From contig NZ_CANMTE010000005.1 of the NCBI RefSeq assembly GCF_947500795.1, positions 124,001 to 188,000 on the forward strand: a stretch of DNA of 64,000 nucleotides. The letters run 5' to 3'. The stretch's first letter is position 1; the number at the start of each line of letters is the position of its first letter. This document shows, in pieces, positions 11,083 through 38,949 of this stretch. The notes under the pieces are model-generated. The model saw nothing but the letters and a program-made list of their open reading frames with translations. It ran no database searches and was not told the DNA's origin. Position numbers and translations under genes: made by a program. This stretch comes from an uncultured Gelidibacter sp. (GTDB taxonomy: Bacteria; Bacteroidota; Bacteroidia; Flavobacteriales; Flavobacteriaceae).

Positions 11083-13839
11083 ATGAAACATTTCATAATG
11101 TTGGCGCTACTTTTTGTAGTAGGAAACACTTTTGCGCAACTCAAATTAGAAGGTGTTGTAAAAGATAGTATCGGCAACCCATTAGAACTTGCAAACGTAA
11201 TTGCCATCAATCAAGAAACCAAAGGATTGGAATCTTACGGAATCACCAATAGTCAAGGACAATATCAACTCGCATTGACAAAAAATAACACCTATACCAT
11301 TCAGGTCAGTTATATCGGCATGAAAACCTTTGAAGAAGTCTTGAGTGCTAAAGAAGCGGATATTACAAAAAACTTCACTTTAAAAGATGATAATACTCTT
11401 GATGAAATTCAGTTAACCTACGAAATGCCGGTAACGATTAAAGGTGATACCTTAACTTATAATGCCGATTCTTTCAATAAAGGTACCGAACGTAAACTTG
11501 AAGACGTTTTAAAGAATTTGCCAGGTGTTGAAATTAATGCCGATGGAAAAATCGAAATTGAAGGTAAAGTCGTTAATAAATTAATGGTGAATGGAAAGGA
11601 TTTTTTTGATGGCGATTCAAAATTAGCCACTAAAAATATTCCATCAAACGCCGTCGATAAAATACAAGTGTTGCGTAATTACGCCGAAGTTGGTCAGTTA
11701 AGTGGTGTCCAAAATAACCAGGATAATGTGGCCATCAACATCAAACTGAAAGAAGGGAAAGAGAACTTTTGGTTTGGTAACGTCACCGTTGGCGGCGGAT
11801 TTGCACCAACCCCAAATGATGAGTTGTATTTAGTGCAGCCCAAATTATTTTATTATAGCCCAAAGTACAGTATTAATGTTATTGGCGATTTGAATAACAC
11901 GGGAGAAGTTGCATTGACAGGTCGTGATATTAGAAATTTTGGCGGCGGATTTAGACGACCAAGCGGCGGCAGTGGTACAACTATTAATTTAGGGGATAAT
12001 GGTTTGGGAAGTTTAACCAATCTTGGGAATGCGCAAACAATACAATCTAAATTAACGGCTTTCAATTTTAGTTATGCACCTAACAAAGCTTTGGATATAA
12101 GCGGATTCGCAATATATAATAGCAACAGATTAAAAACGCGTCGCGAAAGTTTTGTGCGGTACACCGATTCTGATTTAGGAATTCCTGATGAGGAAAAGGT
12201 AGAAATTGGCCGTGAAGCTACAAATCAAGGGTTGGCAAAATTGAGTTTAAGATATAAGCCAGATTCCAATAACCAGTTAGATTATGATGTTTTAGGACGA
12301 ATTTCAGACGATTCTGAAGCTAATGGCATCTTTTCTTCGGTAGTTGGGAACACCAATCAATTGGATAAAGCCAAACCGTTTAGCATCAATCAAAATGTCA
12401 ATTACTATTACACATTAAACGAAAGACATATTTTCGCTTTTGAAGCACAGCACTTGCTGAAGGACGAAGATCCATTTTACAATGCACTTTTGGTAAACGA
12501 TCCTACCAATAATGATGGTCAGCCAAATGAACGCGATGCTTTTGATAATACGGCGGAAGGTTTAGGTTTAAATAGAGATCAATTTGGATATAATTTGAAT
12601 CAGGAACGTCGCATTAAATCCAATCAATTGGATGCGAAGTTGGACTATTATTATATTTTGAATGCAACGAGTAATATCAACTTTACGTTGGGAACTATCT
12701 TAAGTAATCAACAATTCGACTCTAATATTTTTCAATTTTTAGATGATGGATCTTACTTTGATCCAATAGCGAATATTACGGACAGCGATGGGAATTCCAT
12801 ACGCAATGAAAATGATACCGAGTACAATTTTAGCGATGTCTATTTAGGGGTTCATTACAGATTGAAATCAGGTAAATTCACCTTTACACCAGGTTTTTCG
12901 CTGCATGCCTATGGAAATAATAACACCCAATTTGGAGAAGCTTATAAAGACAATTTCTTTAAGATCTTACCTGATTTTGAAACCTTAATTCAATTTAAGA
13001 AGAGCGAAAGTTTAACCTTTAGATATAACATGCAAAATTCCTTTACGGATGTGACGAGGTTAGCTCAAGGATTGATCTTAAATAATTATAACAGCATTCA
13101 GTACGGGACGCCAGATTTGCAAAACGCCTTGTCTCACAATTTAAGTTTGCGTTATTTCAGTTTTAATTTGTTTAATTACACCAACATTTTTGCGTCGCTT
13201 AACTATAATAAGAACATTGATCAAATTAGATCAGTCACTCAGTTTGACAATGTTATTAGAACCAGCACTTACTTTAATTCCAACTTTGCAGATGAAAGTG
13301 TGTCGGCATTTGGGCGTATACAACGTACGTTTGGAAAGTTGAGAGCAAGCATGGGCGTGAATTATAACTACAGTAAAAGCAATCAATTTATCCAGGATAG
13401 AAGATCGATTAATGAAAGTTTTTCTCAAAGCTACAGTCCAGAATTAAGGACCAACTTTAAGAAAGCTCCAAATGTATCTTTAAAATATCAGTACCGTGTA
13501 ACTGATAATAACCAAGGAACTAACAAGTCCAAATTTACCACTAACTCACCATCTATAGAATTTGATGCGTATATCTGGAATGCCTTTACATTTAAAACAG
13601 ACTATTCCTATACCAAGCAAAATAGTGATGTTGGCCCTTCAGATTCGTACCAAACATGGAACGCAAGTTTGGCCTATAGAAAGGATAAAGATGCCAAATG
13701 GGAATATGAATTAAGAGCGTCCAACTTACTGAACATAGATTCCAATATCAACAACGGATCGAATAACATTTCAGTTTACAGTTCAGAAACATTCGTTCTA
13801 CCACGATTTGTGACTTTCAGATTTATTTACACTTTATAA
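11083..13839 (+). CDS. Outer-membrane beta-barrel protein with carboxypeptidase-like domain
   Basis: This 918-residue protein has a signal peptide ending near VGNTFAQ. Residues 20-105 form a carboxypeptidase-regulatory-like beta-sandwich (LEGVVKDSIGNPLELANV, TYTIQVSYIGMKTFEE). A plug-like region follows (LEDVLKNLPGVEINADGKI, near residue 140). From about residue 250 to the end it is a beta-barrel of the OMP_b-brl_3 type, finishing with an aromatic strand (VTFRFIYTL). These proteins resemble TonB-dependent receptors. The substrate is unknown. The operon with the GLPGLI gene and a strong terminator after it make a two-gene unit. Confidence 0.9.
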   Translation: MKHFIMLALLFVVGNTFAQLKLEGVVKDSIGNPLELANVIAINQETKGLESYGITNSQGQYQLALTKNNTYTIQVSYIGMKTFEEVLSAKEADITKNFTLKDDNTLDEIQLTYEMPVTIKGDTLTYNADSFNKGTERKLEDVLKNLPGVEINADGKIEIEGKVVNKLMVNGKDFFDGDSKLATKNIPSNAVDKIQVLRNYAEVGQLSGVQNNQDNVAINIKLKEGKENFWFGNVTVGGGFAPTPNDELYLVQPKLFYYSPKYSINVIGDLNNTGEVALTGRDIRNFGGGFRRPSGGSGTTINLGDNGLGSLTNLGNAQTIQSKLTAFNFSYAPNKALDISGFAIYNSNRLKTRRESFVRYTDSDLGIPDEEKVEIGREATNQGLAKLSLRYKPDSNNQLDYDVLGRISDDSEANGIFSSVVGNTNQLDKAKPFSINQNVNYYYTLNERHIFAFEAQHLLKDEDPFYNALLVNDPTNNDGQPNERDAFDNTAEGLGLNRDQFGYNLNQERRIKSNQLDAKLDYYYILNATSNINFTLGTILSNQQFDSNIFQFLDDGSYFDPIANITDSDGNSIRNENDTEYNFSDVYLGVHYRLKSGKFTFTPGFSLHAYGNNNTQFGEAYKDNFFKILPDFETLIQFKKSESLTFRYNMQNSFTDVTRLAQGLILNNYNSIQYGTPDLQNALSHNLSLRYFSFNLFNYTNIFASLNYNKNIDQIRSVTQFDNVIRTSTYFNSNFADESVSAFGRIQRTFGKLRASMGVNYNYSKSNQFIQDRRSINESFSQSYSPELRTNFKKAPNVSLKYQYRVTDNNQGTNKSKFTTNSPSIEFDAYIWNAFTFKTDYSYTKQNSDVGPSDSYQTWNASLAYRKDKDAKWEYELRASNLLNIDSNINNGSNNISVYSSETFVLPRFVTFRFIYTL

Positions 13840-13861: not shown

Positions 13862-13897
13862 AAAAAGGCAATTTCGAAAGAGGTTGCCTTTTTTTAT
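13862..13897 (+). terminator. Rho-independent terminator after the beta-barrel gene
   Basis: AAAAAGGCAA (13862-13871) pairs with TTGCCTTTTT (13884-13893), followed by more T residues. It ends the GLPGLI/beta-barrel operon. Confidence 0.85.
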
Positions 13898-17131: not shown

Positions 17132-17242
17132 AAGATTTGACGTTGCGCGTCGAAGGTAGTTTCCACTGCCTTTAGCATTTTTAGTCCCAAGTTCGATTTA
17201 AAATTTAAATCTATTGGAAGAGGTTGCAATCAGTCAAATCTT
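17132..17242 (-). promoter_or_regulatory. Structured 5' leader of metK, candidate riboswitch
   Basis: Read on the minus strand, AAGATTTGAC (17242-17233) pairs perfectly with GTCAAATCTT (17141-17132), closing a 91-nt region. Inside are TTGC/GCAA, a long hairpin (TTCCAA...TTGGGA enclosing GATTTAAA-T-TTTAAATC), and AAGGCAGTGGAAACTACCTT, a hairpin with GGAA loop. The strings GCAACC and TGCTAAA occur in the same order as in the SAM-I core, but the GATGAAGCC kink-turn arm of SAM-I is absent. Downstream, AACCT (17126-17122) can pair with AGGTT (17109-17105) immediately before the ATG, a possible translational switch. SAM sensing is inferred from the gene and the core strings; no known class is assigned. 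Confidence 0.55.
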
Positions 17243-17262
17243 TCCTCTCAATTAATATGTGG

Positions 17263-17292: not shown

Positions 17293-17501
17293 TCCTTTTA
17301 AAATTATTTCGTTTAAAATTAACGTTTTAAAATTTTTTCAATTTAAAATGGATTCGTGTAAAGCACTGTAAATGCTAGTGTTATGACTGTGTTTTGAGGG
17401 TCTGGAAACGGTGTTTTTAAAAATTAAACCGCAATTAATTTGGAATTGTAATTTTTGTGTTGCAATATTTGTGTTCACAAAGTTCAAAAACTTATTGAAG
17501 T

Positions 17502-17620
17502 GTTATCAAGAAAGGCGGAGGGATTAGACCCGATGAAGCCTTAGCAACCCTCTAGCAATAGTGAAGGTGCTAAATTCTACTTAATTGCTGATTCATTTAT
17601 CGGCTAATTGGATAGATAAC
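17502..17620 (+). promoter_or_regulatory. SAM-I (S-box) riboswitch upstream of metY
   Basis: The S-box core is easy to read: GTTATCAAGAAAGGCGGAGG, then GACCCGATGAAGCCTTAGCA, ACCCT, GAAGGTGCTAAATTCTAC and GATAAC. GTTATC (17502-17507) pairs with GATAAC (17615-17620) as P1, GGC with GCC closes P2 with the kink-turn GATGA segment, and P3 and P4 follow. Bound SAM should lower expression of the downstream O-acetylhomoserine sulfhydrylase. The aptamer starts 241 nt before the metY start codon. Confidence 0.93.
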
Positions 17621-17625
17621 TAAAC

Positions 17626-33868: not shown

Positions 33869-33927
33869 AACTTGGTAAACCATTTTTTATGACTTAAATT
33901 CGCCCTTAGTTCATACTATTAATAATT

Positions 33928-34064
33928 GTTATCACGAAAGGCAGAGGGAATAGACCCAATGAAGCCTTAGCAACCCTTAAAATTCCTGCGTAGGCAGGAA
34001 TCTCAATAAGAAGGTGCTAAATTCTACTTTATGCTGAATTTAATTCAGGATTTAGACAGATAAC
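33928..34064 (+). promoter_or_regulatory. SAM-I (S-box) riboswitch upstream of metH
   Basis: P1 is GTTATC (33928-33933) with GATAAC (34059-34064). AAAGGCAGAGGGAATAGACC, CAATGAAGCCTTAGCAACCC and AAGGTGCTAAATTCTAC match the S-box core and the metY copy closely. The P3 loop is enlarged by a separate hairpin (33982-34001). SAM should repress the split methionine synthase genes downstream. Confidence 0.92.
33982..34001. repeat. Dispersed-type hairpin inserted in the P3 arm of the metH riboswitch
   Basis: ATTCCTGC (33982-33989) and GCAGGAAT (33994-34001) form a perfect 8-bp stem with loop GTAG. The metY riboswitch has only a short loop here, so about 20 nt appear to be inserted. The sequence resembles short palindromes found in many flavobacterial intergenic regions. 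Confidence 0.65.
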
Positions 34065-34092
34065 CAAAGTGTATTTTTCCTCACTTTCCTGA

Positions 34093-34122
34093 TGACATTT
34101 TTATTTTTTTACAAGAATGTCA
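34093..34122 (+). promoter_or_regulatory. Possible start-codon-sequestering hairpin of metH
   Basis: TGACATT (34093-34099) can pair with AATGTCA (34116-34122), which contains the metH ATG (34117-34119). It may be the output hairpin of the riboswitch. The same string TGATGAC also follows the metY riboswitch (17686-17692). Confidence 0.35.
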
Positions 34123-35118
34123 GATATAAAAACCGCATTACAATACCGAATTTTAGTTTTAGATGGCGCTATGGGTACTATGCTTCAGCGCTATAATTTT
34201 TCAGAAGAAGATTTCCGTGGCGAGCGATTTAAAGATTATCCAAGCTCCGTTAAGGGCAATAATGATTTGTTATCGCTCACCCAACCACAAGCAATTGCCG
34301 AGGTTCACCGCAAGTATTTTGAGGCGGGTGCTGATATTGTGGAAACGAACACCTTCTCAGGAACTACTATTGCTATGGCGGATTATAACATGGAAGATTT
34401 GGTTTACGAACTGAATTTTGAATCGGCTAAAATTGCAAAACAAGTTGCGGAAGAATTTACGAAAGCCAATCCTGACAAACCCCGATTTGTTGCCGGAAGC
34501 ATTGGGCCTACCAATAAAACGGCGAGTTTATCACCTGATGTTAACAAACCTGAATTTAGAGCCATTACGTTTGACGAATTGCGCGTTGCCTATAAGCAAC
34601 AAGTGGAAGCCTTGATTGATGGCGGCGTAGATGTCCTTTTGGTCGAAACCATTTTTGATACCTTAAATGCAAAAGCTGCATTATTTGCTATTGAAGAAGT
34701 TAAGGAAGAACGGAACATTGATATTCCTATCATGGTATCCGGGACCATCACCGATGCCTCTGGACGTACACTTTCAGGACAAACGGTGGAAGCGTTTTTA
34801 TTATCCATTTCACATATTCCATTGCTCAGTGTCGGATTTAATTGCGCACTGGGTGCTGATCAGTTGCAGCCTTACTTGCAACGTTTATCTAACGAAACTG
34901 AATTTTACACGTCAGCCCACCCCAATGCTGGTCTGCCTAATGCGTTTGGCGAATATGAGCAAACTGCTGATCAGATGAAGGTTTTAATTGAAAATTATCT
35001 GAAAGATGGTTTGGTCAATATTATAGGCGGCTGTTGCGGAACCACCCCAGAACACATTAAGAAAATTGCAGACACCGCAAAAAATTACGCACCTCGAAAA
35101 ATTGAAGTAAGTATTTAA
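34117..35118 (+). CDS. metH: Methionine synthase, homocysteine-binding part
   Basis: This 333-residue protein is the N-terminal module of cobalamin-dependent methionine synthase as a separate protein. It binds homocysteine through zinc: [13 protein letters not shown] opens the domain, and the Zn ligands are Cys in [11 protein letters not shown] and the CC pair in [13 protein letters not shown]. The module is complete, so this is a genuine split and not a truncation. The following gene supplies the remaining modules. A SAM-I riboswitch lies just upstream. Confidence 0.94.
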
Positions 35119-35144: not shown

Positions 35145-35171
35145 GTCGGAAGGGTGAAAATCAAAAAGAAC

Positions 35172-37847
35172 ATGAGCAAGACTAAGAAATACCTAACACT
35201 TTCAGGACTCGAACCATTAATTGTGACTCCTGAGAGCAATTTTATTAATGTAGGTGAACGCACCAACGTTACAGGGTCACGAAAATTCCTGCGACTTATT
35301 AAAGACGAAAACTATAGTGAAGCTTTAGATGTAGCACGTGATCAAGTGGAAGGCGGTGCCCAAATTATAGACGTCAATATGGATGAAGGCATGTTGGACG
35401 GCGTTTATGCAATGACCAAATTTTTAAATTTAATTGCTTCAGAACCTGATATTGCCAAGTTGCCGATTATGATTGACAGTTCCAAATGGGAAATCATTGA
35501 AGCGGGCCTAAAAGTGGTTCAGGGGAAATCAGTGGTCAACTCCATCAGTATAAAGGAAGGCGAGGAGACTTTTATCAAACAAGCCAAATTGGTAAAGCGC
35601 TACGGCGCCGCAGTAATTGTGATGGCGTTTGATGAAGATGGCCAAGCCGATACTTTGGATAGGCGGATTGAAATATGCAAACGCTCCTATGATATTTTAG
35701 TGGATAAGGTCAAATTTCCTGCTCAGGACATTATTTTCGATCCTAATATTTTCCCCGTGGCTACCGGTATGGACGAGCACCGATTAAATGCCTTGGACTT
35801 TTTTAAGGCAACCAAATGGATTCGAGAAAATCTACCATACGCCAATGTTTCGGGTGGTGTCAGTAACGTGTCTTTCTCTTTTAGAGGAAATACTGTTGTT
35901 CGGGAAGCCATCAACTCGGCATTTTTATATCACGCCATTCAACATGGGATGAATATGGGAATCGTCAACCCAACCATGTTGGAAATTTATGATGAAATTC
36001 CGAAGGATCTATTGGAGCATGTTGAAGATGTATTGTTTGATAGACGCGAGGATGCTACTGAACGCTTGTTGGATTTTGCAGAGACCGTTAAAGGGGATAA
36101 GAAAGAAGATGTTGCAAAAATTTTGGAATGGCGAAAAGACGCCTTACAAGACCGTATTACGCATGCGCTGGTGCGAGGAATTGAAACTTTTATTATTGAA
36201 GATGTAGAGGAAGCGCGTCAGCAAACGGGAAAACCTATTGAGGTTATTGAAGGCCATTTAATGATTGGGATGAGCGTTGTTGGAGACCTCTTTGGAAGCG
36301 GTAAAATGTTTCTTCCCCAAGTAGTCAAATCGGCGCGGGTTATGAAAAAGGCAGTAGCCTATTTACAACCGTTTATTGAAGCAGAAAAAGATGGAAAGCA
36401 GGAGTTTGCCGGCAAGGTTTTAATGGCGACCGTTAAAGGTGATGTTCACGACATTGGTAAAAATATTGTGAGTGTCGTTTTAGGTTGTAACAATTATGAA
36501 ATCATCGATTTAGGAGTGATGGTGCCACCGGAGAAAATCATTGAAACCGCCATCAGAGAGAATGTCGATATTATTGGGTTGAGCGGATTGATTACGCCTT
36601 CTTTGGATGAAATGGTGTACGTGTCCAAAGAAATGGAAAAAAAGAACATCAATATTCCACTAATGATTGGCGGTGCGACTACGTCTAGAGCACATTCTGC
36701 CGTAAAAATTGCCCCAAATTATGGGCATACTGTCGTGCATGTTAATGATGCTTCGAGAGCAGTAACCGTGGTGGGTAATTTACTTCAAAAGGACAATCGC
36801 GTTTATAAAGAGCAAATTCGTGAAGAATATGAAAAATTTCGAGAGCAGTTTTTAAAGCGAGGCAAACAGAAAAATTTTGTGACTATTGAAGAAGCCAGAA
36901 AACGAAAATTTAAAATCGATTGGAACACTACGGAAATTGTCAAACCTAACCTATTGGGCGTTCAGATTATTGAAGATTTTGAGCTTAAAAAATTAGAGGA
37001 TTTTATTGATTGGAGTCCGTTTTTTAGAAGTTGGGATTTACATGGTAAATATCCTGAAATTCTTACAGATGAGGTCGTGGGTGAACAAGCGACGGAGTTG
37101 TTTGCTGATGCAAAAGCCTTATTGAAAAAAGTGTTGGATGAAAAGCTCTTGAAAGCAAAGGCCATCTTCGGATTGTACCCCGCAAATACCATTAATGATG
37201 ATGATATTGAAATCTACGATGTTTCAGGAAAAACACAAGTCACCTTTTTAACCTTGCGTCAACAATTAGAAAAACGGGAAGGCCTACCGAATTTTGCGTT
37301 AGCGGATTTTATAGCGCCTAAAGATTCAGGAAAACAGGATTACATGGGCTGTTTCTGTGTGTCTACTGGTTTTGGAACGGAAGAATTAGCCAAGCAATAT
37401 GAGAAGGATCTCGATGATTATAATTCGATTATGATTAAAGCGCTAGCCGACCGACTTGCGGAAGCTTTTGCTGAATATCTACATAAGGAAGTGAGAACCA
37501 GTCATTGGGGCTATGATTCTGATGAGAATTTATCTAATGATGAATTGATCAAAGAAAGCTATAAAGGCATTCGCCCCGCACCAGGGTATCCTGCATGTCC
37601 TGACCATTTGGAGAAAAAAACAATTTGGAAGCTGTTGCAGGTGAAGGAAAATATTGGTGTGGAAATTACAGACAGCTTAGCGATGTGGCCAGCCGCAAGT
37701 GTTTCAGGCTATTATTTTGGAAACAAAGAATCCAAATATTTCGGACTTGGGAAAATCACCCAAGACCAATTGAAAGACTACGCCAAAAGACGCGGCATTA
37801 GCAATGAGGAAGCGGAAAAATGGTTGAATCCTAATTTGGCGGATTAA
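35172..37847 (+). CDS. metH: Methionine synthase, folate-, cobalamin- and SAM-binding part
   Basis: This protein of about 891 residues carries the remaining MetH modules in order. The pterin (methyl-tetrahydrofolate) domain opens with [16 protein letters not shown]. The cobalamin domain has [20 protein letters not shown] (the DxHxxG motif, His as lower cobalt ligand). The activation domain carries [15 protein letters not shown], which binds SAM for reductive methylation. The ATG at 35172 is preferred over an in-frame GTG at 35154, because the extra six residues are not conserved in appearance. With the upstream gene it makes methionine from homocysteine. Confidence 0.94.
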
Positions 37848-37992: not shown

Positions 37993-38949
37993 ATGAAAGT
38001 AACAGATCACATTAAACAAGCGAACGGAAATACACAATTTTCTTTTGAAATCTTACCACCATTAAAAGGGCAGCACATCCAATCAATTTTTGATAATATT
38101 GACCCATTGATGGAATTTAAACCGCCGTTTATTGACGTCACTTACCATCGCGAAGAGTATGTGTTTAAAGAACAAGAAAATGGCCTGCTCAAAAAACAAG
38201 TGGTAAAGAAGCGACCAGGAACCGTAGGTATTTGTGCGGCCATTCAAAATAAATATAAAGTCGATGCCATTCCGCATATTTTGTGTGGTGGATTTACCAA
38301 AGAAGACACTGAGAATTTTCTGATAGATCTAGACTTTTTAGGCATTCAAAATGTGATGGCGTTGCGCGGGGATGCCGTTAAAACGGAAACTTATTTCAGG
38401 CCAGAAAAAGATGGTCATGAGTATGCTAATGGCTTGGTGCAACAAATTAGTGCTTTAAATGAAGGCGTTTACTTGGATGAAGAACTCCAAAATTCCTCTA
38501 AAACCGACTTTTGTATTGGCGTAGCCGCCTATCCTGAAAAGCATATGGAATCTCCGAGTTTAGAAAGTGACATTCACTTCTTAAAGAAGAAAATTAAGAA
38601 TGGCGCCGAATATGTCGTGACCCAAATGTTTTTTGACAATCAGAAATACTTCGATTTTGTCGAGAAATGCCGAACTGAAGGCATCACGATTCCCATCATT
38701 CCAGGATTAAAACCGATTGCTACAAAAAAGCAATTGAATTTGTTGCCACATCGTTTTCATGTGGATTTGCCTGAAGATTTGATTTTAGAGATTATCAAAT
38801 GCAAGGACAATGCAGCAGTGAAACAAGTGGGCATTGAGTGGTGTATCCAACAATCTAAAGAATTGCAACAAGCAGACATTCCGGTGTTGCATTATTATTC
38901 CATGGGGAAAAGCGATAATATTCAAACGATAGCATCGCAAATTTTCTAA
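37993..38949 (+). CDS. metF: 5,10-methylenetetrahydrofolate reductase
   Basis: This 318-residue flavoprotein makes methyl-tetrahydrofolate for MetH. FSFEILPPLKG opens the barrel, then FIDVTYHRE, ALRGDAVK and GAEYVVTQMFFDNQKYFDFV. These match MetF-type reductases. It lies 145 nt after metH; the gap contains a direct repeat (TTCACAGAGG then TTCACAGAAGG) and no gene. The same-strand order makes it likely to share the metH regulon. Confidence 0.95.
   Translation: MKVTDHIKQANGNTQFSFEILPPLKGQHIQSIFDNIDPLMEFKPPFIDVTYHREEYVFKEQENGLLKKQVVKKRPGTVGICAAIQNKYKVDAIPHILCGGFTKEDTENFLIDLDFLGIQNVMALRGDAVKTETYFRPEKDGHEYANGLVQQISALNEGVYLDEELQNSSKTDFCIGVAAYPEKHMESPSLESDIHFLKKKIKNGAEYVVTQMFFDNQKYFDFVEKCRTEGITIPIIPGLKPIATKKQLNLLPHRFHVDLPEDLILEIIKCKDNAAVKQVGIEWCIQQSKELQQADIPVLHYYSMGKSDNIQTIASQIF

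Follow-up and report, generated by a model that had tools for sequence, protein, structure and literature searches.

The stretch of Gelidibacter DNA that we analysed (64 kb; hereafter, the window) carries metH split over two genes downstream of an aptamer of the SAM-I (S box) class, together with metF; the names metH and metF are ones that we take from protein families. A second SAM-I aptamer, used here for comparison, precedes metY (Table 1). Both aptamers score above the gathering score of the Rfam SAM family (44.4), and the metH aptamer matches the model RF00162 over its whole length. Its end lies 50 nt from the start codon of metH (ATG, 34117-34119), which places it in the leader of a methionine gene. 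The metH leader is, on these grounds, a SAM-I riboswitch, which would bind SAM and change expression.

The core of the metH aptamer is near the consensus of the Rfam SAM alignment, with a single odd base: the strongly conserved A at model position 10 is a C at window position 33935. The same C was found in all nine Gelidibacter metH aptamers that we compared, with and without the insert described below, and A stands at this position in the aligned metY aptamers. Since carriers and non-carriers share the C, it is unlinked to the insert. The core looks intact, as an initial annotation of the DNA had claimed. The same annotation had noted an extra perfect hairpin relative to the metY aptamer, and this we confirm. 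Indeed, Rfam places an insertion of 20 nt in the P3 loop of the metH aptamer, the loop of the metY aptamer is short, and the tip of P3 forms the perfect hairpin ATTCCTGC-GTAG-GCAGGAAT, followed by CTCAA. The predicted fold of the 37-nt P3 tip reaches -12.3 kcal/mol (z -4.24) and that of the 59-nt P3 arm, with the hairpin on the tip of P3, -20.3 kcal/mol (z -5.00); in neither case was any of 200 shuffles as good.

Table 1. Features of the metH leader, its genes and the comparison aptamer (window positions)
Feature	Position	Strand	Basis
SAM-I (S box) riboswitch aptamer, metH leader	33926..34066	+	Rfam RF00162, 70.3 bits, E 2.2e-14, model 1-108 of 108
Comparison SAM-I aptamer before metY, short P3 loop, without insert	17500..17622	+	Rfam, 72.7 bits
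P3 helix, 5' strand (TTAGCAACCCTTA)	33967..33979	+	Rfam alignment and RNA folding
Segment in place of the short P3 loop of non-carriers, including the short flanks of the repeat	33980..34006	+	Alignment with short alleles (G001, G002, G005) and other carriers; exact ends inferred
Copy of the dispersed palindrome: perfect 8-bp stem, GTAG loop, then the unpaired tail CTC	33982..34001	+	Sequence, repeat counts, folding
P3 helix, 3' strand (TAAGAAGGTGCTAA)	34007..34020	+	Rfam alignment and RNA folding
Possible expression platform CTGATGACATT ... AATGTCAG, hairpin enclosing the metH start codon (P1 forced)	34089..34123	+	Predicted folding only
First metH gene, homocysteine-binding part, 333 aa	34117..35118	+	ORF list; relatives by tblastn
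Second metH gene	35154-37847		ORF list
metF	37993-38949		ORF list

The window also contains a SAM-II riboswitch (17161-17253 on the minus strand; Rfam, 46.1 bits for a gathering score of 44) upstream of a metK-like gene and about 250 bp from the divergent SAM-I aptamer of metY. The same pair of SAM-II and SAM-I was found in another Gelidibacter genome (G008, locus L270, 2149-2250 and 2497-2619). According to the passages of a 2007 article that deal with the two classes, no single species had been found with both (PMC2258182).

A dispersed palindrome in Gelidibacter

Copies of a dispersed palindrome of REP-like type, (A)ATTCCTGCGNAGGCAGGAATCTC, recur in Gelidibacter, and the metH hairpin is one of them; the palindrome is directional and takes the form (A)ATTCCTGC-GNAG-GCAGGAAT-CTC. 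We searched for this repeat in the genome of the window (G000) and in eight other Gelidibacter genomes (G001 to G008; L numbers denote individual loci). Exact matches to TTCCTGCNNNNGCAGGAA numbered 5, 2, 9, 17, 64, 2, 31, 66, and 78 for the genomes G000 to G008, respectively, and the reversed-pattern control gave none in any of the nine. Over the whole of G000, nine further places fit TTCCTGCNNNNGCAGGAA with one mismatch, against none for the reversed pattern. The directional 22-nt pattern TTCCTGCGNAGGCAGGAATCTC, searched on both strands with up to three mismatches, gave 15, 7, 27, 55, 105, 9, 52, 103, and 120 strand matches in the same order, a symmetrical copy possibly counting on both strands, against 0 for its reversed control in all nine genomes. 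The repeat is therefore present in many dispersed copies in G003, G004, G006, G007, and G008 (52 to 120 matches), and is scarce in G000 and its nearest relatives (15, 7, and 9 matches). The 15 matches in G000 place the hairpin elsewhere in this genome as well as in metH; in the 64-kb window, the pattern was found once with up to three mismatches allowed (0.29 expected).

Three of the five exact palindromes of G000 (L001, L003, and L005, the last being the metH copy) have a loop of the repeat type. The loops of L002 and L004 are non-consensus and their flanks recur in G005 (L076 and L068, respectively), those of L004 also in G001, G003, and G006. These loops and recurring flanks suggest that L002 and L004 are probably fixed terminator-like hairpins and not copies of the repeat. 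The two exact palindromes of G001 and the two of G005 likewise have loops that are not of the repeat type. At L004, L064, L065, L068, and L075, the palindrome stands beside A- and T-runs with similar flanks in five Gelidibacter genomes; it is probably a bidirectional terminator there, and perhaps an old copy of the repeat.

Among 19 variants of the palindrome, chosen by eye from the match list and not constituting a sample, 10 keep every changed pair (e.g., TCCCTGC/GCAGGGA, TACCTGC/GCAGGTA, and TTCCCGC/GCGGGAA) and 9 have at least one broken pair. We oriented 26 copies, of which 21 come from Gelidibacter: the four positions after the 7-bp core read T-C-T-C in 22, 26, 22, and 17 of them, respectively, and the 5' side of the repeat is no more than A-rich. 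The palindrome also occurs in other Flavobacteriaceae: ATTCCTN8AGGAAT was found at 38 places in G074 (control 0), where many copies have a GAAG loop and some form opposite-facing pairs 49 to 53 bp apart.

We then considered the surroundings of the copies. An Rfam scan of 20 repeat loci identified one copy between tRNA genes (L073), and the sole structured RNA containing a copy was the metH aptamer of G008 (L270). In G007, nine exact palindromes stand in a row between the metH genes (L269, reverse complement 13038-13795; the first metH gene ends at 13039 and the second starts at 13884), where G006 has one. Other tandem arrays, with a spacing of about 135 to 265 bp, occur in G007 and G008. Some copies (L063 and L071 in G007, L070 in G008) fall inside mechanical ORFs (149 and 492 aa), close to the beginning of the frame, and may, by analogy with the palindromic elements of Rickettsia, add residues to proteins. 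Such ORFs make the initial description of the palindrome as intergenic too narrow, although the palindrome is dispersed as claimed. A preference of the repeat for the tips of inverted repeats was rejected as a general rule: over 49 distinct Gelidibacter copies, the pairing energy of the two flanks averaged -2.66 kcal/mol against -3.18 kcal/mol for mispaired flanks, and 298 of 300 shuffles were at least as strong. Two metH copies rank first and second for flank pairing among these 49.

Comparable palindromes are on record from G. forsetii, a flavobacterium. The CGTC-1 REP, in the part of its description that covers structure and distribution, shares with the Gelidibacter repeat an 8-bp stem beginning with AT, a 4-nt loop, and a short unpaired tail, as well as opposite-facing pairs about 50 bp apart (for some copies, in a related genus) and the lack of association with transposase genes (PMC3733652). 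In the corresponding sections, Di Nocera et al. (2013) report CGTC repeats as unassociated with transposase genes and name G. forsetii among the hosts, which include Bacteroidetes (PMC3733652). In contrast to CGTC-1 as presented there (PMC3733652), the tag CGTC/TGTC/CCTC occurs in 0 of 21 oriented Gelidibacter copies and in 1 of 62 in a wider set, and the Gelidibacter tail is TCTC, not CCA. TGTC is present in three of five copies from related genera; copies with TGTC come from G237, G370, and G026. Because the stem and the loop size match but the tag and the CCA tail are missing, we treat the Gelidibacter repeat as CGTC-1-like and stop short of assigning it to that family. The same article equates, where it turns to R. 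conorii, RPE-6 and RPE-4 with CGTC-1 and CGTC-4 (PMC3733652). The Rickettsia elements, as treated in that part of the article, are also small palindromes tolerated inside functional genes, but the cases given are protein genes, whereas the host here is a regulatory RNA aptamer (PMC3733652).

The GTAG REPs and REPINs associated with RAYT transposases are likewise short dispersed palindromes. However, no GTAG was found at the foot of the palindrome in 26 oriented copies, the GTAG of the metH copy being its loop, and no repeat lies beside the Y1_Tnp loci that we examined. Y1_Tnp (PF01797) had no match in G000 and none in G005. In one survey of relatives, 12 of 25 genomes had a match, and relatives rich in copies do have such genes; G074, with its 38 places for the looser palindrome, presented one weak match only. 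The matches listed numbered 72 (53 + 19), and 39 loci were examined with about 1.5 kb on each side, or less at contig ends. None of these 39 had a copy of the repeat with up to two mismatches beside it, and 6 had one chance-like match with three mismatches. Dispersal driven by RAYT is thus unsupported.

Presence and absence of the hairpin in metH P3 loops

The palindrome occupies the same spot at the tip of P3 in six of the nine Gelidibacter metH aptamers (G000, G003, G004, G006, G007, and G008). The other three have a short P3 loop. It reads CTTTACTTATAAAG in G001, as it does in a further Gelidibacter record (L184), and differs slightly from this in G005 and G002. All eight aligned metY aptamers were devoid of the palindrome (the metY aptamer of G002, at a contig end, was left out). 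We extended the comparison to 80 metH loci from named genomes, for which P3 was readable by pattern in 33, three of them from Gelidibacter; none of the 30 readable P3 arms outside this genus had the palindrome. The comparison of relatives shows that the hairpin is not conserved throughout, and the filled and empty sites, together with 7 to 120 matches per genome against 0 for the control, support the earlier proposal of a mobile or repeated palindrome in a tolerant loop. It is from the filled and empty sites, rather than from any known transposase, that we infer movement of the repeat.

Like other members of RF00162, the metH aptamer combines a full-length match above the gathering score with a position in the leader of a methionine gene and an insertion at a peripheral loop. 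What differs is that the extra P3 hairpin is here a copy of a dispersed genomic repeat. It could be argued that the hairpin is a native extension of P3, part of the riboswitch, and that its likeness to the repeat is accidental. Other genera do have long P3 arms with a hairpin that is not dispersed (CTGATGNCTATCAG in G089, G237, and G370). The Gelidibacter hairpin, however, reproduces exactly, down to the tail, a repeat family that reaches 120 matches in one genome against none for the control, and three of nine congeners lack it, so that we find a native origin very hard to credit.

We built a tree from the region surrounding metH (at most 17 kb; 12.9 kb in G002) after removal of the P3 tip, and rooted it at the midpoint. 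It separated (G002,(G001,(G005,G000))) from (G003,(G008,(G006,(G004,G007)))), every fork being supported at 95 or more. On this tree, the insert needs at least two changes, and a single clade of carriers, a group chosen with the tree in view, was rejected (p-AU 0.00095). A 2.1-kb tree including L184 placed this record just outside G001, G005, and G000 (99/99), with the rest of the genus left unresolved by the same tree. Among the four close relatives, G000 alone carries the hairpin. The short loops found in G001, G002, G005, and L184 differ little from one another and resemble those found in other genera. This speaks for a short loop in the ancestor, and a separate arrival of the insert in the lineage of the window fits best.

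All six carriers share similar junctions (CTTA..AATT / ATCT..TAAG), as would be expected if the palindrome had inserted once in the ancestor of Gelidibacter and had then been lost several times. This history would require separate losses in G002, L184, G001, and G005, each returning to nearly one loop, and this form of the loop is common in other genera; we therefore consider it improbable. Alternatively, homologous recombination over a short tract, with a Gelidibacter carrier as donor, may have brought the insert into the lineage of G000 in place of the repeat's own movement. The common junctions are consistent with such an exchange, as are the equal lengths of the G000 and G003 alleles and the scarcity of the repeat in G000 and its nearest relatives, which makes a fresh transposition less likely there. 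Over 150 nt on each side of P3, however, the best match to G000 is the empty sister G001 (95.5/93.8% identity), compared with 89.7/94.4% for G005, 83.0/90.7% for G002, and 82.9-89.1/81.3-84.4% for the carriers, so any exchanged tract would need to be short. G005 (89.7%) and the carrier G003 (89.1%) are almost equally similar to G000 on the 5' side. In addition, the GTAG loop of the G000 copy is absent from the other five metH carriers. Recombination with a carrier appears, on balance, somewhat unlikely.

The hairpin, the switch and other long P3 arms

We compared the predicted folds of the nine Gelidibacter metH leaders. With P1 forced, the start codon of metH was paired in the hairpin CUGAUGACAUU...AAUGUCAG in all nine. 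Without constraint, the 5' half of the aptamer paired with the conserved CCUCACUUUCCUGAUGAC region in eight of the nine, the minimum of G006 being the P1 fold, and the start codon was still paired at two or three of its three bases in every leader. No ON (open) state was found in silico among the predicted folds of these leaders. The folds with P1 suggest translational control, in which SAM would close P1 and the start codon would then be hidden; since the start codon is paired in the unconstrained folds too, such a mechanism remains conjecture by analogy with the family. The energy gap between the two predicted folds was 2.1 kcal/mol for both G000 and G001 and 2.9 kcal/mol for G005; it ranged from 0.0 to 5.3 kcal/mol over all carriers and from 2.1 to 6.3 over non-carriers. 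In each of the six carriers, the inserted hairpin stands as a separate arm in either predicted fold, and no shift between the alternative folds was predicted in G000 relative to its nearest non-carriers (G001 and G005).

We observe a dispersed repeat, a single site that is filled in some genomes and empty in others, and an aptamer core still fitting the model; the operation of the switch, the neutrality of the insert in the cell, and the manner in which the repeat moved are our interpretation. The palindrome copy sits in the terminal loop of P3, and because this loop is unconserved in the Rfam consensus, the copy would form its own hairpin atop P3 and leave the remaining aptamer as in non-carriers. 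With the aptamer outside the insert as in non-carriers, the switch should work as in the relatives, probably hiding the metH start codon in the downstream hairpin once SAM closes P1. We consider it likely that a copy of a REP-like dispersed palindrome lies in the P3 loop of the metH SAM-I aptamer as a hairpin of its own, with the aptamer otherwise as in non-carriers, and that the insert is a near-neutral, tolerated passenger. Many riboswitches tolerate insertions at specific sites, typically stable stem-loops that leave the core undisturbed, according to the 2007 article cited above (PMC2258182).

The hairpin might instead have been co-opted, as a stabiliser of P3, a ribonuclease barrier, or a protein site, and be kept by selection. 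The pairing of the stem is kept in 47 of 48 cells over the six metH carriers, with a two-sided change from C-G to U-A in G003 and one broken closing pair in G008. Moreover, when 15 G000 places were compared with the directional consensus, the metH copy alone matched it perfectly, the next best having two mismatches. The two-sided change is nevertheless not beyond chance, as shuffles reach the same in 86 of 500 cases, and the conservation of the stem is thus no proof of selection. Three congeners manage without the hairpin, and the balance of the predicted folds is unshifted relative to the nearest non-carriers. We give co-option little credence and retain the reading of the insert as a passenger that is probably close to neutral.

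Finally, we searched the family for other long P3 arms. The long-P3 pattern yielded 40 rows in 37 of 397 family genomes. For 30 of these rows, the loci were available: 22 lie before a methionine gene and 8 look like chance matches. The 22 methionine-gene rows comprise 10 metH (including G000 and G003), 9 metY (one being a weak metY/metB relative), and 3 metX-like cases. The motif CTGATGNCTATCAG occurs once each in G089, G237, and G370 (3 of 19 genomes), in a long P3 arm before metH; at these loci (L107, L112, and L113), the hairpin stands at the P3 tip as a single copy whose sequence is conserved across three genera. Some other long arms contain hairpins similar to CCGATNGCTATCGG, a palindrome of modest dispersal. 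Of 19 genomes searched for this motif, 7 (including G000, G001, and G008) returned between 5 and 15 strand matches, 4 returned one or two, and 8 none, for one match of the control in one of the 19. Its copy in the metY P3 of G408 is one of five places in that genome, and since only the G408 P3 allele fits CCGATNGCTATCGG exactly, a second case of a captured palindrome is weak. In G059 and G284, where a ATTCCTRTGGAAATAGGAAT arm precedes metX, a looser pattern was counted at 18 and 8 places, respectively (control 0), as totals without the matched strings.

The idea that all long P3 arms are captured repeats was rejected, CTGATGNCTATCAG being single-copy where it is found. P3 tips take up hairpins repeatedly, and not all of these are dispersed repeats. 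More speculatively, and with more doubt than conviction, the SAM-I P3 tip may be a recurrent safe landing place, which the same repeat would have entered at least twice in Gelidibacter metH and the dispersed CCGATNGCTATCGG in the metY P3 of other genera. If this is true, the peripheral helices of riboswitches would grow partly by the capture of mobile palindromes, and a captured copy could later be fixed as an arm, which might explain the single-copy CTGATGNCTATCAG hairpins of other genera.

Among the papers listed in a literature search over titles and the beginnings of abstracts, with a coverage that leaves most subscription journals outside, none reported a REP inside a riboswitch. The peripheral helices of riboswitches vary in length, and the origin of their extra hairpins is seldom traceable. 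Here, an extra hairpin is traced to a dispersed repeat, and the filled and empty sites in sister species constitute a natural experiment. A metabolite-sensing RNA took up a foreign hairpin and kept its core, which shows where switches can accept foreign DNA, and the natural alleles make the neutrality of such a capture directly testable.
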